Shown here piece after piece: positions 6,390 to 58,497 of a stretch of 64,000 bases of DNA. The translations under genes and the position numbers were made by a program. This stretch comes from Beroe forskalii. Taxonomy: Eukaryota; Ctenophora; Nuda; Beroida; Beroidae. The notes under the pieces are model-generated. The model was not told the origin of the DNA and ran no database searches. It saw only the letters and a list, made by a program, of their open reading frames with translations. Location of the stretch: contig WFMF01000115.1 in NCBI GenBank assembly GCA_011033025.1, forward strand, positions 310,001-374,000. The letters are read 5' to 3'. The stretch's first letter is position 1. Each line of letters begins with the position of its first letter.

Positions 6390-9300
6390 ATGGATGAAGA
6401 TGAATGTCATTCAGACTCAATTGCAAACATAATACAGAAGTTCGAGAATTTACAGCATGGGATGGTGGGCCCACCAGAAGATATGCCACCAAGGCCCATT
6501 ACTGCTCCTCCAGTGATGAGTGGGTCAAAACCTGCCAAAACCTGTATTGTACAGAGGTGAGTAACAAGTTTTCAGTTTAAATGAAATCACTTGATGTACA
6601 TTCTACCACTAGATGTTCATTCCACCACTAGATGTTCATTCTATCACATGGCATTGGTATAGTAAGTTTTAATTCAACTTTCCTGTGGAATAATTTGAAC
6701 CATTTCAGGAAAGATGAACTTATTACCAAGCTCTGTGAAGAAGTGTGTTATCTCAATAATGCAATAGTTGAACTTAATGATAACAAGCCTGAAACCAAAT
6801 TCATTCAAGACATGTTAGTATCACAGTTTTAAATGTACTGTAGTCAATTTTGAAATTGTCCAAATAGTAGAATAGTAGGTAGGTATTTTGGTTATTGTGC
6901 CAGCTGCCTTTCGCACTGCATATGCAAAACAATCTTAACAGTGATGATCATAATATGCAGTACTTCAACTCAACAACTTTTATAAATATTTTCATGTATT
7001 CATCCAATTGTTTCCCTTCAGGAAATATGGAGAACCTGTTTTTGAGGACAACTACTTTAATATTTCTGGATCTGTCTCTCCATTTGAGCCAGAGGTAGGT
7101 ACAAAACACTTATATCTTATTAACTTAGAGCATTCCACAATGCATATATTTGTGTGCACTATATTTGTATTATCGAATTGTTTTCTTTTGTATTTTTGAT
7201 AGCAGAATGATTGATAATTTAATTAACAGAAGTGCTTAGAAATATAAAATATCCATCATGTTATGATAGTTAACACTGAAATGTATTTCATTCAACCAGG
7301 AACATGGTATGATCATAATAATAATAGGTTGGTACAACAAATATGATTGTATGAAACATGTTGATTGTGTTTCTTTCAAAAAACGTGACTTATTTTCAGT
7401 TTTCTGCCAATTTTTCCACAGCATCAGAGAAACATCTTAACGGCAAAGATATGCCAAGGGAGGGCAGTACTGAAAATACTGAAAGGTAAGTCGTCAAACC
7501 TTATCACTTGGTTTAGCTCAAATAATCATAATGTTTTTCAGGCTGGGTCATATAAATTAAACCTGTTTATTTACTTAGGTATCCATTGCATCTTGTAAAG
7601 ACAGATCAAGCTTTTCAAGATCCATAATGTAAAGTTCAAAGATCGTACTGTATTATGTTTACCCAATTTGTTTATCATCCTATTTTGGATTTGCATTTGC
7701 ATTCAGTTCACGTTCTTTGAAGGTTCCCAAGAAAATTATGGCAAGATGTTTCATGTTAGTCACATTACAAACTTTTTATTTTTTGTTGTGAATAAGTATA
7801 AAGTATTTTATTAGACAGTCAAGACATCCGTCTTCCGATTTAAACGAACTATAAATAAGTATTGACGGGATTGGCGCCAGCTTGGCTGTAAAAGAATGTA
7901 ATGTACATCATAATATGTGATAGTGTTCTTAGGATTACTTATATTTCTGAGATATGACACGTTTGAATATTATGTTCTTCATTTCAAATAAAAGATATGT
8001 TAGGTATTTGCTCGTTGTTTGTTGAAACGGACTTTGAGTTTATAAATAGCAGTTGCATCGCTTACAGCCAACTGTTTTCAGAATTGGAAGCGCCATAACT
8101 ATTTCGTTATTTTGTGTCACTCATATCCACTTTAATCAAATATTAGTATGCTCAAAAGATGCAACATAATTCAGGTTACAAATTTTGGCAAAGTTCGTCA
8201 AGACGATGATTTTCTCTGGTTTCTTCTCTTTCGATCCTTGAGAATCTCAACAACTAACAAGACCTTATTAATAAAGGGATATGAACAAGACCTCTACTCC
8301 CAGTCCTTGCTGTTGCTTCCGGGTCCGACACGTCTCTAATCCCATTCCTTGAGCTGTTGCTTCGCAGCAAGGAATGGGATTCACATAGATTCTCATAGTC
8401 ATTCTTGTATACTTACCTTGCTCTATCATTCTTGCTGTTGCCTCGCAGTCCAACACAGATTTCTCTCATCTTGCTGTTGCTTTGCAGTCCGACACGGATT
8501 TCTCTCCGCTCCTTCCTGCAGCTCAGCTCTCCGAACATTCTCATTTGTTCTAAAACAAAGAATATGCGATCTGACATCAGCACCTTTCCATTCTAAATCA
8601 TGAAAATATTATACCTCTCTTCCGCCTGTTTATGAAGTGCACTCTATAGTTGCCAGAACCTCAGGAGAGAAACCTCCCAAGTTACTAAAGCTGCAGACTT
8701 GACAACACTCTCGCAATGATATCACCCCTGCTTACCTAATACCTAATGAATCGATGATAAGTTCATATCATGCCACGGCACTTTACAGGATGGGTGATGT
8801 AATATAGGTTGCGTTAGAGTGGGTGGTATGTTGAAATGACAAAACTTCCATATTACCGGCGCTTTCAAATGACATGAGTACTTATTTAAGGGGGTGCAAT
8901 ATCGGGCAATTACTGTAAAATGTATATACCAAGTTTGGTCAAAATAGTTTTCTTTAAATATTTTCAGAAAAATTTGCGAACTCATTTTAACACCTGGTAT
9001 ATAGCTGTTAAGCTGTTATGTTTAAATTCTAGAACAGTTGTTCTTCAAGTCCTGATACATTCATATAACCTCTGTGATATACAATAGTATAAAGGTAAAA
9101 AGGACCAAATTGCATCCTCAATAAGCGAAAAAATAAGAAATTCATGGAAATAAAAATTGTTGCCATATTTTGGGTGCCTGAACAGTGTTCACTGCTCAAT
9201 GTACCAACGTTCATATTAAAGCTGCTCCATTGGGGTGACAAATTTTGCGCCATCCTAGTTCATCTCACGAGATTTTCATTTGATCGATCGTTCTAATTAA

Positions 9301-15068: not shown

Positions 15069-15359
15069 AACATGGGTGTGAAATAAATCTTAATCTAGGT
15101 TTGAGGGTTGGATCCGATAGCATATAGGTCAAATATATACCAAAAAAAAAGTTTCAAAAATTTTCGATGCGGAAACCCATTTTTGGGCCACGCCCATTTT
15201 GGGCAGTGGCCAAAAATGAATCAACGATATCTCAGCTTCTACTTGAAGAAAAGTTATAAGTGACCGCTCTAACTGACGTAGAATTGGCGGTTTTACTAGG
15301 GTAGAACATGGTTTTAAGGTCCTATCTCATCCCGTTCCCGAGATAATCCCAAATTTGGC

Positions 15360-16160
15360 CATTTTGGCTGTCCGTCAGGCCCAATTTGGGCATATGGGCA
15401 GCTTATGAGATGGAGAACATCAGAACCATGTAACTCGACTGGAAATGATCGGTTTATGAGGGTAGAGCAACGTTTCAAGGCTCAATCTCAACCCGCTCCC
15501 GAGATAATCCCAAATTTGGCCATTTTGGCTGTCCGTCAGGCCCAATTTGGGCATATGGGCAGCTTATAAATGGAGAACATCAGAACCATGTAACTCGACT
15601 GGAAATGGTCGGTTTATGAGGGTAGAGCATGGTTTCAAGGCTCAATCTCAACCCGCTCCCGAGATAATCCCCAATTTGACCATTTTGGCTGTCCATGAAG
15701 CCCATTTTTGGCGTTTCGACAGCTAATGATATTGAGACCGTCAGAACCATGTAAATCGACTGGAAAGGGCCGGTTTATGAGGGTAGAGCATGTTTTTAAG
15801 GATCTATCTTAACCCATCCCGGAGATAATCCCCAATATGGCCATTTTGGCTGTCCATGAGGCCCATTTTGGGCATTTGGACAGTTTATGAGATGGAGAAC
15901 ATCAGAACCATGTAACTCGACCGGAAATGATCGGTTTATGAGGGTAGATCGTGTTTTTAAGGCTCTATCTCAACCCGTGCCCGAGATAATCCCCAATATG
16001 GCCATTTTGGCTGTCCATGAGGCCCATCCTGGGCATTTGGACAGCTTATGGGATGGAGAACATCAGAACCATGTAACCCGACGGGAAATGATCGGTTTAT
16101 GAGGATTGAGGGTAGAGCATTTTTTAAGGCTCTATCTCAACCCGTTCCCGAGATAATTCC
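15360..16160. repeat. Left arm tandem array, about 165-180 bp unit
   Basis: About five copies of a unit containing GAGATGGAGAACATCAGAAC, a G.AAATG.TCGGTTTATGAGG stretch, TCTCAACCCG and CCATTTTGGCTGTCC. The copies differ by scattered substitutions, and the later ones read CCCATTTTGGGCATTTGGAC where the earlier read CCCAATTTGGGCATATGG. Confidence 0.8.
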
Positions 16161-16734
16161 TAAATTTTAAATTTTGGCAGACCTATGGCTCAATTGGTGC
16201 ACTCAGCTGAGGTACTCAATGTAATGACTAGCTTAGTCATCAAGAGATAATCGGTATGTGGTGTAGAAGACTCTAGATCCCAAGTTCTCCGAGGGATAAT
16301 TCTCTCCTGCACTGTGGTTTATGATTTAATGGTGGCTTCAAGACTCGTGATCCGATGAACTCTGACGTTTTAACAGGTGTTATTGAGGTGAGTATATAAT
16401 GAGTTTCTCAATTTCAGATAATCTCAACATTTTCGGCGCATTGTTATCTCAATATAGCCGAATCAGCTTTTGTAACAAATTATAGAACCCTCTGATGTTT
16501 TCATGCGGGTCTATAATATATAGACACTTGCCTGATCGGGTCCATATTGGTTTAGACACTCGCCCTACGGGCTCGGGCCAAAACCGGATACATCCCTCGG
16601 GCTTACGCCCTCGGGCAGTATCCCAAAATGGAGTAATGGACCCCATAGGCGCGTGTCTATGTATTTTATAGATACGTGTCATACTAGCATAGGAAGACGT
16701 CAGTAATGATTCAGTACGATGCAATAGATATAAC

Positions 16735-21919: not shown

Positions 21920-22790
21920 CAACTCGGTAACGGGTTGAGATAGAGCCTTAAAACCATGCTCCATCCTCATAAAACGACCATTTCCAGTGGAGTTACATGG
22001 TTCCGATGGTCTCCATCTCATAAGCTGTCCAAATGCCCAAAATGGGCCTCATGGACAGTCAAAATGGCCATGTTGGAGATTATTTCGGGCACGGGTTGAG
22101 ATAGAGCCTTAAAAACACGATCTACCCTGATAAACCGATCATTTCCGGTCGAGTTACATAGTTCTGATGTTCTCCATCTCATAAGCTGTCCAAATGCCCA
22201 GGATGGGCCTCATGGACAGCCAAAATGGCCATATTGGGGATTATCTCCGGGACGGGTTAAGATAGAGCCTTAAAAACATGCTCTACCCTCATAAACCGGC
22301 CCTTTCCAGTCGATTTACATGGTTCTGACGGTCTCAATATCATTAGCTGTCGAAACGCCCAAAATGGGCTTCATGGACAGCCAAAATGGCCAAATTGGGG
22401 ATTATCTCGGGAGCGGGTTGAGATTGAGCCTTGAAACCATGCTCTACCCTCATAAACCGACCATTTCCAGTCGAGTTACATGGTTCTGATGTTCTCCATT
22501 TATAAGCTGCCCATATGCCCAAATTGGGCCTGACGGACAGCCAAAATGGCCAAATTTGGGATTATCTCGGGAGCGGGTTGAGATTGAGCCTTGAAACCAT
22601 GCTCTACCCTCATAAACAGATCATTTCCAGTCGAGTTACATGGTTCTGATGTTCTCCATCTCATAAGCTGCCCATATGCCCAAATTGGGCCTGACGGACA
22701 GCCAAAATGGCCAAATTTGGGATTATCTCGGGAACGGGATGAGATAGAACCTTAAAACCATGTTCTACCCTAGTAAAACCGCCAATTCTA
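21920..22790. repeat. Right arm tandem array, inverted copy
   Basis: Reverse-complement counterpart of the left array, with the same order of unit variants: the CATATGGGC type is nearest the outer end and the CATTTGGAC type innermost. Keeping the variant order means the arms were copied after the tandem array had formed and diverged. Confidence 0.75.
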
Positions 22791-29684: not shown

Positions 29685-32600
29685 TGTTGATGTGTGATAT
29701 TTGGAACTTTTAGAGAATGAATTGGAAGTGCTACTTCATAGGTCGTGAGGCTGAGTACGTGCCTTCAACTGAGTAGCAGCTAGAGAGTATAGTTTTAACT
29801 TGTAATATGATTTGAAGAGATAAGAGTTTGAGAATGAGGGAATTGTGAGACCGAGTTTTAACCAGGGTATTGCGTCGTTAAACAGGTTTGGTTTACTGAT
29901 CAGCAGAGAGATAAGAGGTCAAAATAGGCGAGTGAAAGGATGAGCTAAGAGTCAGGTGAGAGGGGTAGCGGAGTTAAAGAGAGGGAAATTACGAGATAGT
30001 GTTTTAACAGTAGAGAATATGGAAGTCACGGGAGAGGACGCCCAAATGGCAAGAGAGTACTTAAGGAGCTGAGGAGTAGAGGAGAGGAGCGGCGATAGGA
30101 GGTGCGGTGTGTGGAGCGCTCAGTGCGGAGGCGGAGAGGACTACAGAGGAAGGAATGCTGTGAGCTGAGTGCGGAGATGTGGATCAGGAGTTCGGGGTTC
30201 TTCAGTTCTGGATTGGATTCTGTTATTCTACTGTTATTCCATTCATTTATTGCAAAGGAAGTGGTTGTACTCTATTGGATCTCTATGGGAAATGGGGATA
30301 ACGGAAGAGAATCTTAAATTAACATAAGTGGAGCCTGGTCAAACGAACCCAACATGTATGGTAAAGAGGACGAGGAGAATGGCAACCATGGAGAATGGGA
30401 GGATGAAAGAAAAGATTGGAACCAGAACAGAGGATGGACGACGACATCACAGGAAGGTGGACCCTAATCAGCAGTCGAAGTGGAATCTTCGAAAAACCCG
30501 GAAGAAGGAAATTCTTCAGCAGTCAATGACCAATCTGCCAGAGTGAAGATTTAATGGAATGATGAATTAAGAAAATAAGAAATTGCGTAGTTTTCTGGCA
30601 GAATCGATGGTTTTCTAGAACCATTATTATCAGGCCGAATTTCCTCCGATGAATAAGTGAGGAAGTTGTGCACCCTCATGGAAATTCGTGTCTCATTAAA
30701 AATTCACATAGGGTAGATTGTGAAAACAAGAACCAGACTAACTACGATTTACGAAACAGCCTTGCCCCTTGGGCTGTATCACTCTCCAGAATGGTCATAC
30801 GGACACGGGCACAAGTTGCGTTTCAGGAGTTCAGCAGACTGTGGTGACGGCGATGATAATGGTCGGAAACTCTGCTAACATGAAAGTTACAGAGATGGGG
30901 ACGGTTACAGAGACAGGGATGAGATGGGGATGACGAAGGAGACGGGGATGTATGGCGAGACGGGGATGTATGGCGGAGACGGGGATGTATGGCGGAGACG
31001 GGGATGGGGACTGATACGGTGATGCGTTACGGATCGAGAAACTGGTAAATGTGGTTGATCGCGATGGCAAGCAACGATGCTGGGGGTAATTAGAACTTTA
31101 GGAATGCGAATAAAATATAGACAATGGACTTAATTTCTAAGTGTTAAAGATTTAGTTTTCTAAATCATGAGGGACATTTTTGAAATATGAGAATTTGGTA
31201 AGTTTTAAATGAATAGGATAGCTGAATACTTTGGAGCTTTGGGAAAGCTGGTTGAAATTTTGAATTATGTGAATTGAAATGGTTTGTAACTAAGTGAGCG
31301 TGCGTGTGAAGTGAACGTGTGTGAATTGGGAGTGCGTGTAAAGTGATTTAGCGAGGGAAGTGATTGTGAGACCGACACTTGAGAGTAGGCAGAGATCAGT
31401 GCAAGAGAGGCTTGACAAAGGTTGGAGTACGAGGTATGTAAGAGTTAATCTTTTGAATGAAAGTTTTTTATGCTGCAATAGCATCATAATAAACTATCAA
31501 AATTTTGGAGGGTGATGTGTTGATGTGTGATATTTGGTACTTTTAGAGAATGAATTGGAAGTGCGACTTCATAGGTCGTGAGGCTGGGTACGTGCCTTCA
31601 ACTGAGTAGCAGCTAGAAAGTATAGTTTAAACTTGTAATATGATTTGTAGAGATAAGAGTTTGAGAATGAGGGATTTGTGAGACTGAGTTTTAACCAGGG
31701 TATTGCGTCGTTAAACAGGTTTGGTTTACTGATCAGCAGAGAGATAAGAGGTCAAAATAGGCGAGTGAAAAGGATGAGCTAAGAGTCAGGTGAGAGGAGT
31801 AGCGGAGTTAAAGAGAGGGAAATTACGAGATAGTGTTTTAACAGTAGAGAATATGGAAGTCACGGGAGAGGACGCCCAAATGGCAAGAGAGTACTTAAGG
31901 AGCTGAGGAGTAAAGGAGAGGGAGCGGCGATATAGGTGGTGCGGTGTGTGGAGCGCTCAGTGCGGAGGCGGAGAGGACTACAGAGGAAGGAATGCTGTGA
32001 GCTGAGTGCGGTGATGTGGATCATGAGTTCGGGGTTCTTCAGTTCTGGATTGGATTCTGTTATTCTACTGTTATTCCATTCATTTATTGCAAAGGAAGTG
32101 GTTGTACTCTATTGGATCTCTATCATCTATGGGAAATGGGAATAACGGAAGAGAATCTTAAATTAACATAAGTGGAGCCTGGTCAAACGAACCCAACATG
32201 TATGGTAAAGAGGACGAGGAGAATGGCAACCATGGAGAATGGGAGGATGAAAGAAAAGATTGGAACCAGAACAGAGGATGGACGACGACATCACAGGAAG
32301 GTGAACCCTAGCCAGCAGTCGAAGTGTAATCTTCGAAAAACCCGGAAGAAGGAAATTCTTCAGCAGTCAATGACCAATCTGCCAGAGTGAAGATTTAATG
32401 GAATGATGAATTAAGAAAATAAGAAATTGCGTAGTTTTCTGGCAGAATCGATGGTTTTCTAGAACCATTATTATCAGGCCGAATTTCCTCCGATGAATAA
32501 GTGAGGAAGTTGTGCACCCTCATGGAAATTCGTGTCTCATTAAAAATTCACATAGGGTAGATTGTGAAAACAAGAACCAGACTAACTACGATTTACGAAA

Positions 32601-33924
32601 CAGTCTTGCCCCTTGGGCTGTATCACTCTCCAGAATGGTCATACGGACACGGGCACAAGTTGCGATTCAGGAGTTCAGCAGACTGTGTGACGGCGATGAT
32701 AATGGTCGGAAACTCTGCTAACATGAAAGTTACAGAGATGGGGACGGTTACAGAGACAGGGATGAGATAGGGATGACGAAGGAGACGGGGATGTATGGCG
32801 AGACGGGGATGTATGGCGGAGACGGGGATGTATGGCGGAGACGTGGATGGGGACTGATACGGTGATGCGTTACGGATCGAGAAACTGGTAAATGTTGTTG
32901 ATCGCGATGGCAAGCAACGATGCTGGGGGTAATTAGAACTTTAGGAATGCGAATAAAATATAGACAATGGACTTAATTTCTTAGTTTTAAAGATGTAGGT
33001 TTCTAAATCATGAGGGACATTTTTGAAATATGAGAATTTGGCAAGTTTTAAATGAATAGGATAGCTGAATACTTTGGAGCTTTGGGAAAGCTGGTTGAAA
33101 TTTTGAATTATGTGAATTAAAAGGGTTCGTAACTAAGTGAGCGTGCGTGTGAAGTGAACGTGTGTGAATTGGGAGTGCGTGTAAAGTGATTTAGCGAGGG
33201 AAGTGATTGTGAGACTGACACTTGAGAGTAGGCAGACATCAGTGCAAGAGAGGCTTGACAAAGGTTGGAGTACGAGGTATTGGTAATCTTTTGAATGAAA
33301 GTTTTTTATGCTGCAATAGCATCATAATAAACTATCAAAATTTTGGAGGGTGATGTGTTGATGTGTGATATTTGGTACTTTTAGAGAATGAATTGGAAGT
33401 GCGACTTCATAGGTCGTGAGGCTGAGTACGTGCCATCAACTGAGTAGCAGCTAGAGAGTATAGTTTTAACTTGTAATATGATTTGTAGAGATAAGAGTTT
33501 GAGAATGAGAGAATTGTGAGACTGAGTTTTAACCAGGGTATTGCGTCGTTAAACAGGTTTGGTTTACTGATCAGCACAGAGATAAGAGGTCAAAATAGGC
33601 GAGTGAAAAGGATGAGCTAAGAGTCAGGTGAGAGGAATAGCAGGGTTAGAGAGGGAAATTACGAGATAGAGTTTTAACACTAGAGAATTTGGAAGTCACG
33701 GGAGAGGACGCCCTTATGGCAAGAGAGTACTTAAGGAACAGAGGAGTAGAGAAGAGGAGCGGCGATAGGAGGTGCGGTGTGTGGAGCGCTCGGTGTGGAG
33801 GCGGAGAGGACTACAGAGGAAGGAGTGCTGTGGGCTGAGTGCGGTGATGTGGATCATGAGTTCGGGGTTCTTCAGTTATTGATTGGATTCTGTTATTCTA
33901 CTTGAAATTCCATTCATTTATTGC
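29685..33924. repeat. 1.83 kb tandem unit in A-B-A-B-A order
   Basis: Unit starts TGTTGATGTGTGATATTTGG at 29685, 31518 and 33356 (periods 1833 and 1838 bp). The third copy stops after about 570 bp at ATTTATTGC (33924). So a block of about 570 bp occurs three times around two copies of a block of about 1.26 kb. The order fits LTR-internal-LTR-internal-LTR: the 570 bp block starts with TG and is preceded by purine-rich GGAGGGTGATG. Copies are roughly 97-98% alike by eye. A basic 72-codon frame (30328-30546 and 32172-32390) is conserved between copies, but the overlapping frame is equally open. No reverse transcriptase was recognised. Confidence 0.8.
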
Positions 33925-46370: not shown

Positions 46371-46820
46371 TTCCCTTTCGGGAAGAAGGGCCGGGTGAAC
46401 TGTCTCTATACACGGTTAACGTTCGAGACAGTTCCTGATCTCTAGGGGTTTATGGATCAGTTTGCATTTTAAGAGAGAAAGTACACAACGGCTGAAAGCT
46501 TAAGAGACTGGAACCTCACTGGTAGATCTGGAGGATTTTTTTAGTTCTCATCCGGCTGAAAGCACAAAGAACTATTGACTTTAAGAGAAAAGACTAATGG
46601 CTGATACAGCGCTAGTCTGTTAGGTTGCACATTGTTCTTATACTCCAAGAGCATAAGTTGGCAGCCTACTTGTTGCTTCTTGGTCTTAACGCACCATCGC
46701 TGTAGTATTAGCAAGCTAATCTACAGACTACGGCCTCGGGAGCAGCAACGAAGCTCCGTTCCAGGGAATCTCACCGATGTTCTGATTTAACGGTATGGTG
46801 CCCGAATCATCAGAACCTGG
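46371..46820. ncRNA. Candidate structured RNA: dense chain of hairpins
   Basis: Consecutive complementary segments: TTCCC/GGGAA (46371-46384), GAACTGTCTC/GAGACAGTTC (46397-46434), CTGATC/GATCAG (46435-46460), AGTTCT/AGAACT (46543-46573), AGACTA/TAGTCT (46591-46618), TAGGTTGC/GCAGCCTA (46621-46668) enclosing CTTAT/ATAAG, CTGTAGTATTAGC/GCTAATCTACAG (46700-46726), GGAGC/GCTCC (46739-46757) and GTTCTGAT/ATCAGAAC (46779-46816) inside CCAGG/CCTGG. CGGCTGAAAGC occurs twice. No long open frame. I recognise no Rfam family in it; U-snRNA, SRP RNA, RNase P and 7SK signatures were not seen. It may be a structured ncRNA, a retroelement UTR or an organelle-derived insertion. Strand unknown. Confidence 0.4.
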
Positions 46821-46879
46821 AGAGGGGGTTATACAATTATTTTATGGGTCAAACTTTCCTTCAGCCCAGTATGTACCCC

Positions 46880-47190
46880 CAACCAACTCACCGTATCCAT
46901 TACCTCCCCTTCCCCAGAGTATAGTGTATACCCCGACCCACTCACCGTATCCATCAGCGGGGGGGGGGGTAACCCCCTCAAACCCCCAAAAGTGAGGGGG
47001 TTGCCCCCCATTAGCTCCCCCTCCCCAGTGTATACTGTAAACCCCCGACCCACTCACTGACTCACCGTATCCATTAGCTCCCCCTCCTCTTCTGTATACC
47101 CCGACCAACTTACCGTATCCATTAGCTCCCCCTCCTCTGCTGCTCCCCTACTACGTCATACCCCCATTCCCCAACCAACTTACCATATCC
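46880..47190 (-). repeat. Tandem array of five 5' splice sites at the CCDC6 exon 6 end
   Basis: On the minus strand GGATA(C/T)G|GTRAGT recurs with the last exonic G at 47184, 47114, 47066, 46946 and 46892: two GTAAGT and three GTGAGT. Each is preceded by variants of GGGGGAGCTAATGGATA. Units are about 50-70 bp; one is enlarged by a G-rich insertion at 46.96-47.03 kb. Confidence 0.8.
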
Positions 47191-50100
47191 ATTAGCTCCC
47201 CCTCCTCTGCTGCTCCTATTCGAACTGTTACTGATCCTCAGCTGTCGGTTCAGTCTCTGCACTTCATTCTGAAGCTCCTTCACTCGTAACATCAGCTCAG
47301 TGTTGTTCGCACGCAGCATGTTGTCATCCATCTGCGAGCTGCTGGAGTGGCAGGGAGAGGCCGGGGGTGTGCTGTCCTGACCCATCTTAGAGATCAACAC
47401 ACTGAGTGGGAGGAGGGGTTAGAGGGGGTGCTGTCCTGACCCATCTTAGAGATCAATACACTGAGTGGGAGGGATGGGTTAGAGGGGGTGCTGTCCTGAC
47501 CCATCTTAGAAATCAACACACTGAGTGGGAGGGGTGGGTTAAGAGGGGGTGCTGTCCTGGCCATCTTAGAGATCAACACACTGAGTGGGAGGGAGGGGGT
47601 TAGAGGGGGTGCTGTCTGACCCATCTTAGAGATCAACACACTGAGTGGGAGGAGGGGTTAGAGGGGTGCTGTCTGACCCATCTTAGAGATCAACACACTG
47701 AGTGGGAGGGAGGGGTTAGAGGGGTGCTGTCCTCACCCATCTTAGAATCAACACACTGAGTGGGAGGATGGGTTAGAGGGAGTGCTGTACTGACCCATCT
47801 TAGAGATCAACACACTGAGTGGAAGGGAGGGGTTAGGGGGGGTGCTGTCCTGACCCATCTTAGAGATCAACACACTGAGTGGGAGGGAGGGGTTAGAGGG
47901 GGTGCTGTCCTGACCCATCTTAGAGATCAACACACTGAGTGGGAGGATGGGTTAGAGGGGGTGCTGTCCTGACCCATCTTAGAGATCAACACACTGAGTG
48001 GGAGGATGGGTTAGAGGGGGGTGCTGTCCTGACCCATCTTAGAGATCAACACACTGAGTGGGAGGGATGGGTTAGAGGGTGTGCTGTCCTGACCCATCTT
48101 AGAGATCAACACACTGAGTGGGAGGAAGGGTTAGTGGGGGTGCTGTCCTGACCCATCTTAGAGATCAACACACTGAGTGGGAGGATGGGTTAGAGGGGGT
48201 GCTGTCCTGACCCATCTTAGAGATCAACACACTGAGTGGGAGGGATGGGTTAGTGAGAAGTCTTTTTAGGGGGCCGGCGCGGGGGGGGGGGTGGTCCGAG
48301 GTCAATTTCCGGTTTTTTGTTGTTTCTGATAGAGGAAAACAACATCTACCAATGTTTTTACCCCCACGTAAAAATAATGTTACAAGCCGAATTTATAAAT
48401 TTTCTAAATCTCAATTCCACCTGTAATTACAGTGCGCACGCAAACTTACAACGCATTTTGTTCTAGGGGAAATCGCGAAATCACGATTTGAAAAATTTAT
48501 AACTTCGGCAATATTTTTTCATGGGGTAAAAACCTACTGGTAGCTGGCGTTCTCCTCTATCAGAAAAACGAGAGTCGAAAGGCTATTTGCTCTGAGGGGA
48601 ATACAGCGACGAAAAGCTTTTTACTTTTTACATGACATCGATTAATTTGCATCCACAATTCATCAGATATTTACATTTTCTCGTTTTCCAGCTGCTCCAT
48701 TCTCTTCCAAAGTCTGTTGACAAACTGCTCCTGCTCTGCCTCCAAGTGGTTCTCTAGATCTATCTTCTCTTTCCTTAGCTCAACGGATAGAAGCGTATTA
48801 TTGTAATTATCCTAATTAATCTTGATTAGTCTAAATTAATAACTTTAATTGATTTTTATTAATCATTATTGATTTTAATTAATCTAATCAATCTTGTAGG
48901 CTACCTTGATCAGGATTTGAGAAAGATTGTAAAAGCTTCATTGAACGAAGAAATTCTCGACAGTTCTTAGTGCTTAATAACAGTAATTAAGAACTGCTCT
49001 CGTTTTTACACCAGCCAAGCAATTTACTAGTAATTTTAAACGTAGTTGTACAATTAAATGCAGCTGTTAAATTCAGGGGAAGCAGTGGCATCATTGTCAT
49101 TAAGCCATGAATTTGTATTATTTGAAATTTGTGAAATCTCTTCCTAATAAGGCGACCTAATTACGTATTTCCTGTGGCTTCAAGAATGAGTAGAGAATGA
49201 CGAATGGGGATGCTCGGACATCATTAACATAACACTACAAATTGTGCTACTGTATGTGCAAGCAACAGTCGGTCTGACGTAAACACTTCACCATTTAAAA
49301 CCGCTATGATTACGTCACTTTCATTCACGTATCGTTCTGTGACCTACACACGCATACCACACACTCACACTGGGACCTATAATGATGTGTGTTCATGCAC
49401 ATATCTCATCCTGACACAGCCTGTACAGTGTACAAAACGTTAGCTCAATGTACCCCCACTTTGGGGCTACACACTGTCCAAAGTGACGTCATTATCAGGT
49501 ATTAACATGGTGAGTTGTGTACGTCATGCTGGGTCTGGTTCAGGCATATGATGCCAGGATTAAGACCCAAGTCGTGAGTCTATGAAATATTCAGCAGTGG
49601 GGGAGAGCGTTATGTAATAATGCACACATCATTGAATCATGATTCGTGTAATGAGCACAGAACTTCTAAAATACAAACACGATTGTATGAGAAATGTACA
49701 GTTTTATTCCATGTACACACACATAATATAAATATTCAATCAACAAACGGTACGAATTAATATTTTATTCATTCAAGTCACGTCACTTATGAAGCTATGA
49801 TTCAACAGTCATTTCCTAAATTTAGTGCTCGAAGCTGGATACATTGAGGCTTGGTCTAGAGTTTATATTGGAAACATTTCATTAATATCTGTTATAAAAA
49901 ATGGCTACCTTTTGGCTGCAAGTTCATCAAATACCCATATAATACAGTCAAAATTGGATTTTAAAGTGGACAAATTCTACACCAAGCGATTTTGCATGGA
50001 TTCTATAGTTTTTTGCACGAGAAATCGATCTAACAACTTTCCACACCTCTCCGGAGTGTGGAAAGTGCCGAAAATCGATTTTTATTGAGGTGCAGCCGAC

Positions 50101-53100
50101 TGATATATAAAAAATCGTATCTCGGCTCAGGAAGGTCGTAGAGACTTCATCTTGGGCGGAAAATGTGCGCAATGAACATGTTTATAGACAATTGTCAACA
50201 TAAATATGCCCTAAAATGCTCAGGTATGGAGTTACGGGCGAAAAACAGATTTCTTGGGCAGGCGCAAGACCTGCTTAAGGCGAATTTTGTATCTCAGTCC
50301 AGGAAGGTCGTAGAGACTTCAACTTGGGCGGAAAATGTGCGCAATGAACATGTTTCTATACAATTGTCAAGAAAAATATGCCCTGAAATGCTCAGGAACG
50401 GAGTAACGGGCGAAAAACAGTTTTTTTGGGTAGGCGCAAGACCTGATTTAGGCGAATTTTGTATCTCAGAGCATGAAGATCGTAGAGACTTCATCTTGGG
50501 CGGAAAATGTGCGCAATGAACATGTTTCTATGCAAATGTCAACGAAAATATGCCCTAAAATGCTCAGGAATGGAGGTACAGGCGAAAAACTGATTTTTTG
50601 GGCAGGCGCAAGACCTGCTTAAGGCGACTTTTGTATCTCAGTCCAGGAAGGTCGTAGAGACTTCATCTTGGGCGGAAAATGTGTGCAATGGCCATGTTTA
50701 TATACAATTGTTAACAAAAATATGCCCTTAAATGCTCAGGAACGGTGTAACGGGCGAAAAACTTATTTTTTGGCTGCTACAAGACGTTATATTATAGAAG
50801 ATTTTTCTATCTAAGTCCAGAAATTTATTCCAGTCTTGTATGGTGGTTAATAGTTTCCTCGTTTTAGACACATTTCTGTACTCTCTTCCTACTTGCTGAG
50901 TTGAACATTCCAATTATTTTCTGCTCAACCGAAAGTCTCTACGGGTGTACGAAATTTCATGTCAGGAAACTCCCTGTCCTGACCCTAATCATCACCCTAC
51001 AAAAACCTTACCCGGTTTCCTAACTCTTACCCATACGCCTTAACCATAATGCTAACCCAGATCCTTACCTTCGCGTGGAGTTTAAATATTAACAAGATAA
51101 AGTGCCGTGAGATGAAATTTCATAAGATCAAATGTCCGTTACCCGTCTCCTTTCCTTGACGGTGATGATATGAAAATCTTCTCAAACCGTGGCCCAATTT
51201 CATTTTTCGCCCATAACTCTCTTCCTGAGAATTTTAGGGCACATGTTTATCCTTTTATCAGCAAGTCGTACATAATAAACATGGCCGTTGTGCACTTTTT
51301 CCGCCCAAAACGAAACGTCTCTACGACCTTCTCACTTCATGGACTTAACCAGGGCTCGGGAAACCAAATTTTTAGTCAGACGCCCATGACTCCGTTCCTG
51401 AGCATTTTAGGGCACATGTTCATCAACAAGTCGTATACAGATTTGGCCATTGCAATTTTCGACCCAAGATGAATGCTCAACGACCTTTCTGAGCCGAGAT
51501 AGAAAATCGCCGTAATCAGGGGGCGGGCTTGCCATGGTTTTCTCCCCTACCCAAAAATCAGTTTTCTACGACTTTAATGGACTGAGATACAAGATTCGTC
51601 TAAATCAGGTCTTGTACCTGCCCAAAAAATCAGTTTTTAGCCCGTTACGCCGTTCCTGAGCATTTAAGGGCATATTCTTGTTAACAATTGTATATAAACA
51701 TGGCCATTGCACACATTTTCCGCCAAAGATGAAGTCTCTACGACCTTCCTGGACTGAGATACAAAATTCGCCTTAAGCAGGTCTTGCGCCTGCCCAAAAA
51801 ATCAGTTTTTCGCCTGTACCTCCATTCCTGAGCATTTTAGGGCATATTTTCGTTGACATTTGTATAGAAACATGTTCATTGCGCACATTTTCCGCCCAAG
51901 ATGAAGTCTCTACGACCTTCCTGAGCCGAGATACGATTTTTTACATATCAGTCGGCTGCGCCTCGGCTAAAAATCGATTTTTCGGCACTTTCCACACTCC
52001 GGAGAGGTGTGGAAAGTTGTTAGATCGATTTTTCATGCAAAAAACTATAGAATCCATGCAAAATCGCTTGGTGTAGAATTTGTCCACTTTTTAGCCCTTT
52101 TTGAGGCAGATTTGACTGTCTTAATAAACCTAAATATTAAAACCTGAGAAAGCGCACCAATCACCATGTAGAGGGGCTTGCCACCCTCTGTCAACATGTT
52201 ATATGTTCCCAACCCTAGGGTACGGACTGGAGGTTGCAGTCTTCTACAGTCCGTAGTCTGGCAATGTACTATGCAATATGTTCCTAACCCTAAGGTACAC
52301 ACTCGAGTCTTCTACAGTCCGTAGTCTGGCAATGTACTATGCAATATGTTCCCAACCCTAAGGTACACACTCGAGTCTTCTACAGTCCGCAGTCTGGCAA
52401 TGTACTATGCAATATGTTCCCAACCCTAGGGTAGACACACTCGAGTCTTCAACAGTCCGTAGTCTGGCAATGTACTATGCAATATGTTACCAACCCTAAG
52501 GTACACACTCGAGTCTTCTACAGTCCGTAGTCTGGCCATGTACTATGCAATATGTTCCCAACCCTAGGGTAGACACACTCGAGTCTTCTACAGTCCGTAG
52601 TCTGGCAATGTACTATGCAATATGTTCCCAACCCTAAGGGACACACTCAAGTCTTCAACAGTCCGTAGTGTGGCAATGTACTATGCAATATGTTCCCACA
52701 CTCGAGTCTTCTACAGTCCGTAGTGTGGCAATGTACTATGCAATATGTTACCAACCCTAAGGTACACCCTCGAGTCTTCTACAGTCCGTAGTTTGGCAAT
52801 GTACTGTGCAATATGTTCCCAACCCTAAGGTACACCCTCAAGTCTTCTACAGTCCGTAGTCTGGCAATGTACTGTGCAATATGTTCCCAACCCTAGGGTA
52901 CACACTTCGAGTTTCTACAGTCTGTAGTCTGCCAGTGTAATTATGCAATATGTTACCAACCCTAAGGGACACACTCAAGTCTTGTCAGGTCCTGGGTACA
53001 CACCGGGTCCTTTTAAATAGTTGCCTCATAAACCAGGTTTACATACTTGGAAACCCTGCCAACAACCCCTCGAGCCTATTAAAACGGTGTGGTTCTTGGG

Positions 53101-56100
53101 GATCCTGATGAACTCTACTTACATAAAACATGGGAGAGATAGTGACGTCATTATCAGGGCTCAGTGGTACAGCTGATGACGAAACACGACCTTATTACTA
53201 CACATATTACCTCGTTGGAGCCAATACGACCTCCGAATCAAGAGGAATAGCATATATTACATTATTGTTATGCAAATGCAAATGAGGTTAATTGTGTTAT
53301 TATCAAGAATTTCATATGGAACATATAAATGATACCAGAGTACCAAGCGGCAAGGAAACGAGAAGGAGAAGGCAGTATTTGGGGAGCCAGATTGGGTAAT
53401 TAAGGCAAAGTTTTGGTTTCGATGATTGAAGTAAATTCTAATTTTCCTCTAATTGCGACGTACAAGGGAATTAGGTTTCGGAAATAACAAAATGCAGAGC
53501 AGAGAGCAGAGGGTAGACAGAAAAGTGAAGTTTGTCTCTTGGAGATGGCAGCAACACAAACTGAGATGCTTGAAGAAGACTCCGGCTTTCAGTTTTCAGA
53601 CGAATATCTGACAATAAAACATCATGAAACTCCAGGCGTGGATGCCAGCATCTCCAGCGCCCCGAAAAAACTTCACGAAATAAAGCAGAGAGCAGATGGT
53701 TGTATAGCGTACACAGGAAGACGTCACGCTACAGAATCATATTAAACACAGAGTTTACCGGTTAGCAATAGAGCTCTATTACACTATAACAGTAGGTTGA
53801 TGCATCATGAAATTAGGTGGAAGCGCGTAATATCATGAAATATAAACGTGGGGACCACTAGGTCTACGTAAAGAACTGACAAAGAACAGGCAACAACGCA
53901 GAATTAATCTGCTGATTTCAAGAGCAAATCAAATATTAGCGTTTATTAGCTGTCAAGGAGATGACGAATTGAATATAAACAAATAGAACATTTCCTGGCA
54001 TCCTAGACTGCAGACGTCAGACAAAGTAAGAGTCCCCCGATGTAAGATAACCGTGCCCGAAACAGAAGGTCTTGGGAAAGCGAGCTTATCCTTATCAAAA
54101 CGCATAACACCCCCTCTATACTCGACCCAGGGCACCCTAGCTCTATACTCGACCCAGGGCACCCTAGCTACTAAGTGCAGCAGGTGATGACCCTAATGGA
54201 AACTCTCTATCGGAAACAAGAGGGGGATGAGATACTACAGCTCGCAAAGCTCCATTTAATTCGTACTCTAATTCGTAAACCTGTAACTTAATATCATGAG
54301 TTCATGGGATGGAGGACTGATAAAACGTGAAAACACGCGACCTAGAGGACACTGCAATTACAAAGCAATGAGCTGGTTGGAGTGACGCTATTACACCAGC
54401 TTTAAGTATGAATTTGATGACCTGAACCCGCCTATATTTGCTTTACAACTTGACAATACAACTGAAGAACATGATATGCTAACAAAATACTCATGTCTGC
54501 GCACTGAGACATAACAAAAACTATGATATATTGGACGCCAGGTACAATGGTGAAATGAAAACAGGTTTGAAGTTTCATCTATATTTTCTATAAAACTTGT
54601 CAAACAACAATTTTATAAGGAAAATAACGATAATATCGCATTTAAACCTCTGATAATGACGTCACTAAATTAGCCATTTATTATTGGTACACAGCTCTCA
54701 ACATGGACAAGGTTCATTGTAACACTACACTCGACGATAAGATTAAAAGACGTATGTGAATTGTGAGATGGGTGCGGTTGAGCACATTATCACTTGAAGA
54801 GGACTTGAAAAAGCTTTAAACCTTAGGCAATACCATAGTTGTCGCCGAATTTCAGCAATAGTAGGTTACTAAGTTAGTCCAAATCACAAATTTCACGTTT
54901 AAGCGTTTACTTGTTTAGGAAACAAGTGATTCTATCTTGTCAAATATCAAAATAAGTTAGGAAAGGGGGTCAATTTGGAACATTTTCATTTCCTCACAGC
55001 GTGTTCTTGAGTTATGCATCCATATTTTCGTCAATCAGTGAAAATGATACCGTAGTTCTAAGAGAAGAGCAAAAGAAACCAAGTACTCTCACAATTAATG
55101 ACTGATCAGACTAAAATGGTACCCATTTTTCACTTATGCGTGTGGTCCCCCATTTTTAGCCCAAAAGACAGTTAGTATTCTGTACCAAGTGTAGGGGTGG
55201 GTGGTAATGAATCAAGTTTTCAGAAATAGTCAGTTAGTTCACCCTTCGTCATGCACCTGAATCCCCCCTTCCCGGACTGATATGGACATTGGACGTGAAA
55301 AACTGGATAATAAATTTTGAATATCTGCTAAGGATCCATCTACTAATAAATATCAAAGCTACAATCAACGATTAGAATTACAAGTGCGTGCTACTCAAAA
55401 CGGTATTTTGCAGGCGCTTGAAGTTTGGAGTACGCCGTAGATAATTTATACATGTATACAATATACATAAGTATTATTTCGATATAAATAATCTTGAATC
55501 ACTTGAATTCTCATTATTATTCTGGTTATTCTTGACCGATACATATTATGATAATGACCGCGAAGGCAAGTCTCTGGAATGAAATATTCATTTTAATGCT
55601 TAATAATGGTTCTGTCTTCAAACTAACCGAAAATTTCATGGGGTTTCGTCGAAAGATTACCTAACAAGATCATCTAATATTTAAGTTTAATCTGGGTTTC
55701 TGCCAAGTTCGTTAGGTTACAAATTACCTAAATAAGATTACAAGTCCTTACCTTGAATACCTAATGAAGGGAGGTTATACAAGATTTGATAGAATAATTG
55801 AATTAATCTCAGAGAATTAATATTTAATACTACTTGGCATAAGATAAATCGTGCGTCATCCCAGTAGAACAGTTGAATAAATCACGAATTAATTAACAGA
55901 TTAGACTCTGACTGTACCATTGCTGGATTGAAAGAATTGCAGATAACCAACTTACCAAGAACAGGAGAAAGTTTACCGGGTATTATTCTAATCTATCATT
56001 GATAATAATAATCAACACTACCATGATTATATTAATCTTGTAATGTGCAGTCTTGTACACGGTACAACGTACAACGAAGAAAGCTGTCTCGCTATTCACT

Positions 56101-58497
56101 TACATTTATGCTCAATGAAAGGCATCTAAGCTGCATTCGCAGAATTTTCATAAAATTCACAGTATCACATAAAGTACACGACGGTGATAGAATGAAAACA
56201 TTATCAACCATACACGCTATTCCATGACATTCTCACTTCACAACTGGCCCATAATCACAACGGACAGTGAACAAATCACGCGTTACCATCATCACATTAC
56301 GCATTACTTTTGTCACATCACACGTTACCATGGTAACATCACGCGTTACCATGGCCACATCACGCGTTACCATGGACACATCACGCGTTACCATGAACAC
56401 ATCACGCGTTTCCATGAACACATCACGCATAGCCATGGACACATCACGCGTTACCATGGACAGATCAATAGATCATGCGTTACGATGTTCACATCCCGCG
56501 TTATCATGGTCACATCACGCATTACCATGGTCACATCACGCGTAACCATGGACACATCACGCGTTACCATGGTCACATCACACGATACCATGGTCACTGA
56601 ATGACGCTTACCATGGTCACATCACCCGTTTCCTTGACCATATCACGCGTTACCATGAACAATTGAACACATCACGGGTTACCACATCGCGCGTTACCAT
56701 GGTCTCATCATGGATACATCACGCGTTACCATGGTCACATCACGCGTTACCATGGACACATCACGCGTTACCATGGCCACATCACGCGTTACCATGGACA
56801 GTGGACACATCACGCATTAGCATGTTCACATCACGCGTTACCATGGACACATCACGCGTTACCATGGACACATCACGCATTACCATGGTCACATCACGCT
56901 TACCATGGTCACATCACACGTTACCATGGTCACATCACGCGTTACCACATCACGCGTTACCATGGACACATCACGCATTACCATGGTCACATCACGCGTG
57001 ACCATGGTCACATCACGCGTTACCATGGTCACATCACGCGTAACCATGGTCACATCACGCGTTACCATGGACACATCACGCGTTACCATGGTCACATCAC
57101 GCGTTACCATGAACACATCACGCGTTACCATGGTCACATCACGCGTTACCATGGACACATCACGCATTTCCCTGGTAACATCACGCGTTACCATGGTCAC
57201 ATCACGCGTTACCACATCACGCGTTACCACATCACGCGTTACCACATCACGCGTTACCATGGTCATCACGCGTTACCATGGAAACATCACGCGTTACCAT
57301 GGTCACATTACCACATCACGCTTACCAATGTGGTCTCATCTCCCACCTCTATAAGAGCCTCCTGTTTTCGGACCACTTCTGTTTCCAGCTTCAGTATTTT
57401 CTTCTGAAGATGCTGCACTTGAGACATCTGTTCTGATTCCAGGGTCTCCTCCAACTCACGCTTCTCTTTACGCAGCTATAAAAAGGGGGAATATGTCAGG
57501 AAACAGTCAGCACTTCAGAGAAGAAGATATATTTCTCAAAAAGGATGTAATCAATTGTGGCATGAAATGGATTCCTTTGATACCCAATCAACCGACATTT
57601 CCGCGTGCCCAAAGACCAAAGGTAGAAAAAGAAAATATTTTCTCCCGAACCCAAGGTATAAAAAAACAATATTTTCTCCAGAACCCAAGGTATGAAAAGA
57701 CAATGTTTTCTACCTGCATGAGTTTGCGAGAGAGATCATTGGTTAGACACTCTTCTTCCTGCTCGTAGTCCTTAGCAAGCTGCTCCTTATCCTTCTTCAA
57801 CTTCGAGATGGTCTTCATCAGCGTGTTGGAGATAAACTCCTCTTCTTGCTCTGCCTGAGACGAGAGGTGATGTTATATAGGGGTGATTGAGAGCTCCTGT
57901 CTAGAACAGGTCTAAGGTGATCAATTGATTAGATAAATTGAATTTGATTCAGATAACCTTTCAATCTTAGTTGTTAAGTCACCTAAGCAAACAATCCAAC
58001 ATTGATTTTAAATTTATACACTAACCTGCATTTGGATTATTGACACACTAACCTGAACTTGGATAATTGACACACTAACCTGAACTTGGATGTCCACAGA
58101 AGCACGCTTCAGTTGATCCACCTGACTCTCCATACTTTTAACCTTCATCTTCAACAACCCGTTGTCAACTACAGGGGTTATTAAATGAAGCTTAATTACA
58201 TACAGAGTATTGTAACACAAATCGTAAGAAGGCAAATTGTGGTAGCACAAATTTTAGTACCAAAAACCGCCAATAATTGAAGTTCATCATCAATGCAGCA
58301 GTGAGCAGATAAGAAACTTAGATACTTAGATACTGGTAAGTTACGTTTATGGTCATGACGTATAACTAATCTATTCTTCTATTATCCATTATACCCACAC
58401 CAGTGATAATGTCGTCCATACCTTGCAACAAAGTGTTTTCGCCTTTGAGGGCCTCATATCTTGCTAACAGATCCGAGTTTTCTGTATCTGATTCCAT
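47184..58497 (-). CDS. CCDC6: CCDC6 orthologue, exons 1-6 (C-terminal part not found)
   Basis: Exons on the minus strand: 58497-58422, 58168-58080, 57854-57714, 57475-57347, 48778-48675 and 47401-47184, with matching phases (1, 0, 0, 0, 2), giving 252 residues. Nearly all is coiled coil. Landmarks match human CCDC6: [30 protein letters not shown] (human YEKEEEFLTNELSRKLMQ), [20 protein letters not shown] then WKRM, and PPASP followed by [14 protein letters not shown] (human FLKNEVERLKKQLR). Exon 4 encodes exactly 43 residues as in human, and the exon 5-6 junction keeps human spacing. CCDC6 is a coiled-coil, PP4-regulating, DNA-damage-linked protein known from RET fusions. The remaining helix and the Pro/Ser-rich tail are missing here and may lie on exons further left. 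Intron 4 spans 8.6 kb and holds two minisatellites and two inverted-repeat elements. Reading past the exon 6 donor meets a stop at 47122. Confidence 0.85.
47392..48255 (-). repeat. Array of 15 tandem 3' splice sites plus exon starts (CCDC6 exon 6)
   Basis: Minus-strand unit of 57-61 bp: a pyrimidine tract (CCCTCTAACCC.TCC..CCCACTCAG) followed by TGTGTTGATCTCTAAGATGG and GTCAGGACAGCACC. There are 15 copies, and the last (acceptor AG just before 47401) joins the unique part of exon 6. The plus strand is correspondingly G-rich. Each copy has a near-ideal acceptor. Only the exon-proximal one keeps the spacing of human CCDC6. Confidence 0.9.
48323..48566. mobile_element. MITE-like inverted-repeat element, 244 bp
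   Basis: Perfect 14 bp termini TTTCTGATAGAGGA (48323-48336) and its complement (48553-48566), with weaker complementarity over about 80 bp per arm (TTTTTACCCC, AAATTTATAA). The centre holds the palindrome CTGTAATTACAG. Lies in CCDC6 intron 5, between exon 5 and the acceptor array. A diverged relative is at 12.2 kb. Confidence 0.65.
49945..52118. mobile_element. 2.2 kb inverted-repeat element with tandem-repeat arms
   Basis: Ends CAGTCAAA (49945) and TTTGACTG (52118). Inner text such as AAGTGGACAAATTCTACACC and CACACCTCTCCGGAGTGTGG is mirrored on the other side. Each arm holds about four copies of a roughly 170-180 bp unit (CTTCATCTTGGGCGGAAAAT, ATATGCCCTAAAATGCTCAG, GGCGCAAGACCTGCTTAAGG). 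About 0.4-0.5 kb of unrelated DNA separates the arms. No coding capacity; no clear target duplication. Located in CCDC6 intron 4. Confidence 0.75.
52150..52985. repeat. 68 bp minisatellite, about 12 copies
   Basis: Unit contains GGCAATGTACTATGCAATAT, GTTCCCAACCCTAAGGTACA and CACTCGAGTCTTCTACAGTC. Copies differ by small indels. It abuts the inverted-repeat element at 49.9-52.1 kb. In CCDC6 intron 4. Confidence 0.85.
52990..56260. other. Intronic DNA of CCDC6 intron 4
   Basis: About 3.3 kb of AT-rich DNA. A 25 bp unit with CTCGACCCAGGGCACCCTAG is present twice at 54.12-54.17 kb. One small open frame (53539-53745) is listed separately. No exon of CCDC6 is expected here, because exon 4 joins exon 5 without a gap relative to human. 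Confidence 0.5.
53539..53745 (+). CDS. Possible small open frame, 68 codons, unrecognised
   Basis: Begins [20 protein letters not shown], with the inner ATG in good context (ggagATGg), and has a hydrophilic, protein-like composition unlike the surrounding repeats. No homologue is recognised. It lies opposite CCDC6 intron 4. It could be a first exon of a nested gene or chance. Confidence 0.2.
   Translation: MEMAATQTEMLEEDSGFQFSDEYLTIKHHETPGVDASISSAPKKLHEIKQRADGCIAYTGRRHATESY
56265..57320. repeat. 21 bp satellite, about 45-50 copies, with ACGCGTTAC core
   Basis: Unit ACGCGTTACCATGG plus TCACATC (or variants GACACATC, AACACATC), containing MluI (ACGCGT) and NcoI (CCATGG) palindromes. Some units lack the CCATGGTC part (ACGCGTTACCACATC). 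It directly abuts CCDC6 exon 4 on the intron side. Because 21 bp is seven codons, both strands show long V-T-R-D or V-T-M-x-T-S-R frames, which are not genes. Confidence 0.95.
58026..58080 (-). repeat. Triplicated exon 2 donor of CCDC6
   Basis: ATCCAAGTTCAG|GTTAGTGTG occurs three times, with the last exonic G at 58080, 58053 and 58026, exactly 27 bp (nine codons) apart and with no stop between. The third copy reads ATCCAAATGCAG. Homology to human CCDC6 favours the first donor. Confidence 0.85.

Follow-up and report, generated by a model that had tools for sequence, protein, structure and literature searches.

The window (the whole 64,000-nucleotide stretch of DNA that we analyzed) contains exons of a CCDC6 gene on the minus strand. 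Two upstream exons lie at 57705..57866 (human residues ~101-154; 65% identity by tblastn, E = 5.9e-15) and at 57362..57475 (human residues ~152-189; tblastn E = 6.7e-04). Exon 5 (48675..48778; tblastn E = 9.7e-11) ends in phase 2, at ...GAGAAAAT/GTAAAT. It is followed by intron 5 (47402..48674), which by its coordinates is 1273 nt long if the innermost of its acceptors is used and 443 nt long if the outermost is used. From the innermost acceptor to its first donor, exon 6 (47184..47401) has 218 nt and ends in ...GGGANGY. (The tblastn query was human CCDC6, and exon numbers 5, 6, and 7 are taken over from the original prediction.) Exon 6 is a weak match to human CCDC6 by tblastn (34%, E = 0.051); a Pfam profile and relatives support the exon. 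Joined together, exons 5 and 6 match residues 8-103 of the 116 in PF09755, the Pfam family of CCDC6, with E = 4.4e-22, so the original identification of the gene as CCDC6 holds, as does the placement of a repeat array between these two exons.

The array is a mirage-type minisatellite of 15 copies at 47365..48253 on the minus strand, as found by direct reading, by TRF, and by listing the sites. For 47365-48253, TRF reports 15.0 tandem copies with a period of 60, 93% matches, and a score of 1527. Each unit contains, in order, a branch-point-like CTAAC, a pyrimidine tract, CAG, and approximately the first 30-33 nt of exon 6. An exon-intron boundary of a coding gene lies within the unit, and the innermost copy runs on into the CCDC6 exon. 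The pattern CAG/TGT[AG]TTGAT, with the exon start after CAG, occurs at 15 minus-strand sites in the array. (Copies were selected by this pattern, which contains CAG, and the TRF count of 15.0 copies is independent of it.) We numbered the copies from the outermost (copy 1) to the innermost (copy 15). The first exonic base is at 48231, 48172, 48113, 48053, 47993, 47934, 47874, and 47814 for copies 1-8, and at 47755, 47697, 47640, 47580, 47520, 47460, and 47401 for copies 9-15. From outermost to innermost, the acceptors are spaced by 59, 59, 60, 60, 59, 60, 60, 59, 58, 57, 60, 60, 60, and 59 nt. The original prediction of 15 tandem acceptor copies on the minus strand, with a spacing of 59 and then 60 from the innermost copy outward, agrees with these measurements, but its unit length of 57-61 bp does not quite, as the measured spacings are 57-60. 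A search with a 29-base piece of the unit found 14 matches in the window at up to 3 mismatches, versus 0 in 100 shuffles. The single copy missed by this search is copy 9, which has an internal deletion.

The copies bear splice signals of their own: there are 15 CAG acceptors, and the branch-point-like sequence is CTAAC in 14 of the 15 copies and TTAAC in copy 13. The branch-point-like A sits 18-20 nt upstream of the exon start. Several copies have private differences. The 27-nt acceptor of the innermost copy is identical in copy 11 and in copies 2, 10, and 12 of a second array on another contig (C401, described below), so the innermost acceptor is indistinguishable by its local signal.

When exon 5 is joined to each of the 15 window acceptors, just one of them (the innermost) gives a frame that stays open, as assembled; it restores the frame after the phase 2 end of exon 5. 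The other 14 lead to a stop before the body of the exon, at residue 15 to 84 as counted from two codons before the junction. Six of the 14 spacings are not multiples of three. In the assembled sequence, the frames thus bear out the claim that only the innermost acceptor is productive. The count of 14 stopped acceptors depends in part on copies 14 and 15 being 59 bp apart: judging from the distances and the positions of the stops, if they were 60 bp apart, then copies 11-14 would read through in frame. A base-level assembly error at the innermost tract is possible. The same tract is seen in further copies on each of the two contigs and so does not resemble an isolated random error.

Relatives of this gene give a view of exon 6 next to other sequence. 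We had seven protein matches, and two of them (P0001 and P0002) contain exon 6. P0001 matches at 93% over 58% of the query. The other five matches cover exon 5 (four of the five were read). In P0001 and P0002, exon 6 begins with VLISKMGQ or VLIAKMGQ directly after unrelated upstream sequence, and this start agrees with the start of exon 6 in the window. The array repeat was not found in the 32 and 50 residues that are visible before exon 6 in these two proteins. Because unrelated and repeat-free sequence precedes the exon start, the array is absent next to exon 6 in P0001 and P0002. The comparison with sister species that the original prediction had suggested was informative in part: two relatives have no array in the visible stretch, but just 2 of the 7 matches bear on the question. 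In P0001, exon 6 ends with ANGYGANGYG, which we interpret as a small duplication at its donor edge.

The donor edge of exon 6 is repeated in the window as well. At 46874..47216 on the minus strand, there are five copies of a 51-nt piece, and the four other copies are 61-94% identical to the reference. Four copies match GGGAGCTAATGGATAYGGTRAGT with at most 1 mismatch, and 0 are expected by shuffling. We also scanned for boundary repeats in 288,614 bases, comprising the window, C401, and 30 kb of a third contig (C274). A filter for acceptors in the consensus of tandem repeats returned three rows, namely the two arrays and C401:170276-170408. At the latter site, on the minus strand, a kelch gene has two tandem copies, 67 bp apart, of an acceptor with ~40 nt of exon. 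The duplicated piece contains a CTAAC or CTAAA tract, CACTTCAG, and the exon start VETDELITSD. The following exon matches Kelch_1 (E = 2.8e-08); a Pfam search with the duplicated exon itself gave no match. The outer acceptor copy of the kelch gene also leads to a stop. Given this two-copy duplication, boundary duplication is not unique to exon 6.

A pair scan of the same 288,614 bases reported 12 clusters of the acceptor type and 39 of the donor type, of which we examined 5 and 5, respectively. Three of the 12 acceptor-type clusters are at identified coding exons (the window array, the C401 array, and the kelch gene on C401), and another 2 of the 12 are both arrays read on the opposite strand. 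Among the 39 donor-type clusters, the donor edge of exon 6 accounts for 2 (in the window and on C401), and 3 lie inside the acceptor repeats.

Several other tandem repeats were seen in the window. At 8422-8506, a 39-bp unit that includes an acceptor-like TTGCYTYGCAG occurs twice; we identified no coding exon at this site. Tandem repeats of 161 bp lie at 15298-16167 and 21923-22771; the consensus unit of one is the reverse complement of the other's, as though the two bracketed one large element. Similarly, upstream of exon 5, the 172-bp tandem repeats at 50117-50773 and 51565-51934 seem to be reverse complements of each other. A pair of tandem repeats (with 19-bp and 17-bp units) at 30938-31346 recurs 1843 bp away, at 32781-33189, suggesting a direct duplication.

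C401 carries a second copy of the array and of exon 6; the contig breaks off within the array, where the sequence is degenerate. We listed 15 units in the C401 array, of types that are common to the window array but in a different order; its outermost units, at the contig end, are degenerate. Across both contigs, 29 of the 30 listed units have CTAAC and 1 has TTAAC. (All 30 units have AG, but this is no test, because the units were listed by the pattern CAG/TGTRTTGAT.) In exon 6, the shared ATGGAY is preceded by 60 nt on C401 versus 70 nt in the window, and on C401 a unit-like tract replaces 13 residues of coding sequence. As assembled, 0 of the 15 acceptors on C401 are both in frame and free of stops. 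Copies 1, 6, and 10 are at the right distance, but a stop comes first; copies 12-15 read past the anchor, but in the wrong frame, and meet a stop beyond it.

The exons of the gene are spread across contigs. The exons at 57705..57866 and 57362..57475 are each matched once in the genome (E ≤ 0.001), on C154 (the window's contig), while the exon that follows exon 6 has one genome match, on C401. Exon 5 is also present on C274, which carries this one exon and its 5' flank (in pieces within 48647-53786 of the window); the array was not found on C274. The acceptor of exon 5 reads TTGAG in the window versus TTCAG in the C274 copy. Aside from dispersed matches elsewhere, C401 and the window are homologous over 46818-48253 of the window (the array, exon 6, and the donor side of the exon) and not beyond. 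Beside the donor-edge repeats, at 46400..46820 on the minus strand, genome matches reveal a dispersed high-copy repeat: 40 matches were scored, including the window's own, from 129 candidates, with 93-100% identity. (The query ended at 46820, and the upper edge of the repeat may extend further.) As the homology stops beside this repeat, we do not regard C401 as simply an allele of the window. Since the exon after exon 6 turned up on C401 alone and the high-copy repeat reaches 46820, the copy of the gene in the window may be broken or misjoined. In the coding sequence, 3 of 3 differences between C154 and C274 in the 104-nt exon 5 are synonymous, as are 3 of 3 differences between C154 and C401 in the 148 nt that follow ATGGAY in exon 6; this count leaves out the first 60-70 nt of exon 6, which are rearranged on C401. 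That all 6 of the counted differences are synonymous suggests that the copies have had a coding function for most of their history. A simple reading is that there is one gene on two haplotypes, which was cut at repeats by the assembly.

Repeats near splice sites are known from other systems. NAGNAG tandem acceptors have two AGs that are a few nucleotides apart and share one branch point. We ruled out this class for CCDC6, as the CAGs are 57-60 nt apart and each has its own CTAAC or TTAAC. We also ruled out a coding minisatellite (a protein VNTR), as 6 of the 14 spacings are not multiples of three and 14 of the 15 starts run into a stop. Judging by the title of their 2007 paper, Zhuo et al. reportedly described human introns that originated from tandem arrays.

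The closest match is in lancelets, where tandem repeats that span exon-intron boundaries are called mirages, as described in excerpts of PMC3087553. In the lancelet globin BflGb6, the 3' end of an intron and the 5' part of the next exon are repeated in tandem; the units are 150-160 bp long and number 6 in one haplotype and 3 in another (PMC3087553, in part). The same excerpts state that RT-PCR on BflGb6, along with data for Adh3, suggests regular splicing, but that the repeats could act as cryptic sites. The Adh3 mirage has units of 10-72 bp and shows length and somatic instability (PMC3087553, same excerpts). Further lancelet mirages are in TnC and in PGBD5, which has imperfect repeats of 60 and 108 bp at its 5' and 3' splice sites (PMC3902484, from an excerpt). 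The CCDC6 array has the anatomical features of these minisatellites. As in the excerpts on BflGb6, an intron end and an exon start were duplicated in tandem into many copies with splice signals; the units are 57-60 bp instead of 150-160 bp, there are 15 copies instead of 6 and 3, and the BflGb6 case comes with RT-PCR data. And whereas the BflGb6 haplotypes are reported there to differ in repeat number, for CCDC6 the comparison is with the differently ordered array on C401, which may be allelic or paralogous and inside which the contig ends. Adh3, TnC, and PGBD5, as far as those excerpts describe them, share tandem repeats across splice junctions, in other genes and other animals. The original prediction had stated that no minisatellite with a complete acceptor as its unit had been described; this was wrong, as the lancelet mirages in the excerpts of PMC3087553 and PMC3902484 are of the same kind. 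In humans, variable internal tandem repeats at exon-intron boundaries change splicing and can form new introns (PMC2812944, in part). Those are also arrays at exon-intron boundaries, but they are in paralogs from segmental duplications, and that part of the paper does not describe an array of complete acceptors.

We think it probable that the CCDC6 array is a mirage-type minisatellite that grew by ordinary turnover, and that splicing is mainly to the innermost copy. A segment of ~60 bp across the junction of intron 5 with exon 6 would have been duplicated in tandem, and the turnover of the minisatellite, perhaps by slippage or unequal exchange, would have expanded and reshuffled it to 15 copies. 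Each copy is seemingly a complete 3' splice site, with a branch-point-like sequence, a pyrimidine tract, AG, and an exon start. The innermost acceptor is most likely favored by exon definition, because it is the only copy with the full body of the exon and a nearby donor behind it; an outer copy would offer ~30-33 nt of exon and then another pyrimidine tract. Use of an outer acceptor would add 59 to 830 nt with a stop codon, as assembled. Such transcripts would be expected to feed nonsense-mediated decay, so the use of outer copies would be noise. This reading is backed by the anatomy of the array, by the near-identity of its sites, by the reading frames, and by the array-free stretch that is visible in two relatives. 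The repeated donor edge of exon 6 and the duplicated acceptor of the kelch gene also count for it, as do the reordered units of common types on C401 and the like anatomy of the BflGb6 mirage. It is less certain insofar as use of the innermost site is inferred from the sequence. The high-copy repeat at the donor side, and the next exon being on C401 only, count against it as well, since the gene in the window may not be intact.

As to where the unit came from, its intronic half could possibly descend from exon 6 itself: the first 60 nt of exon 6 end in the pyrimidine-rich CCACTCCAG, which resembles the unit's acceptor. When we compared the intronic half of the unit to exon 6, 22, 96, or 187 of 2000 shuffles scored as well, for three variants of the unit, which is weak to moderate. 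Among 65 background 30-mers that are C-rich and end in CAG, 4 scored as well, and these are the exon itself and array units. We did not find these statistics convincing on their own.

One alternative is that the window's copy of CCDC6 is broken or incomplete, or that the contig is misjoined, in which case the array would not affect a functional gene. This is doubtful but by no means far-fetched, and it is compatible with our reading of what the array is. The distribution of the exons (two upstream exons only on C154 and the exon after exon 6 only on C401) would be explained, as would the acceptor of exon 5, which ends in GAG in the window instead of the CAG in C274, and the high-copy repeat that adjoins the donor side of exon 6. 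However, combining C154 and C401, which both have the array next to exon 6, would give a single gene, and 6 of the 6 counted exon differences are synonymous (leaving out the rearranged start of exon 6). If, instead, the assembler had inflated the array, then a contig end inside the array in degenerate sequence, as on C401, and dispersed repeats adjoining the region would be no surprise. But several copies have private differences, and the arrays on the two contigs order their unit types differently, so we consider an assembly artefact very unlikely.

Other alternatives give the array a function. Exon 6 might start at an outer copy, so that the array encodes 20-residue repeats; one 60-bp unit is open in the frame of the exon, and the frame is open from copy 11 through copies 11-13. 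Yet the spacings often break the frame (6 of 14), all 14 outer starts are stopped before the exon body, and a protein search with the repeat in the query gave 2 matches, neither of which carries the repeat. This seems the least plausible of the alternatives. Or the array might be a working decoy, with the copy number setting the share of CCDC6 transcript that is spliced to a stop and destroyed, which would tune expression. We consider this improbable. It would account for 15 near-identical acceptors of which 14 lead to a stop, and for the presence of CTAAC in 29 of the 30 units listed for the two contigs (with TTAAC in 1), but recent turnover would likewise keep these signals intact, and the outermost units on C401, at the contig end, are degenerate. 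There is no sign of selection, and two relatives lack the array before exon 6 in the visible stretch. The excerpts of the lancelet papers (PMC3087553, PMC3902484) suggest that splicing is undisturbed. More broadly, because both edges of exon 6 and one exon edge of the kelch gene are repeated, we speculate, with little confidence, that tandem duplications arise preferentially at exon edges in this lineage and that the array may be a copy-number-dependent decoy for unproductive CCDC6 mRNA.

The array is a natural competition experiment, with fifteen near-identical and seemingly complete 3' splice sites in series and, as assembled, a readable outcome only for the last. Knowing which acceptor the cell uses would be a test of how exon definition selects one of several equal sites, and also of the cost that a mirage array imposes on a gene. 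C401 illustrates a possible danger of such arrays: unit-like sequence has replaced coding sequence in the exon, and the frame is broken as assembled. And if this animal is not a lancelet, then mirages are not a peculiarity of lancelets.
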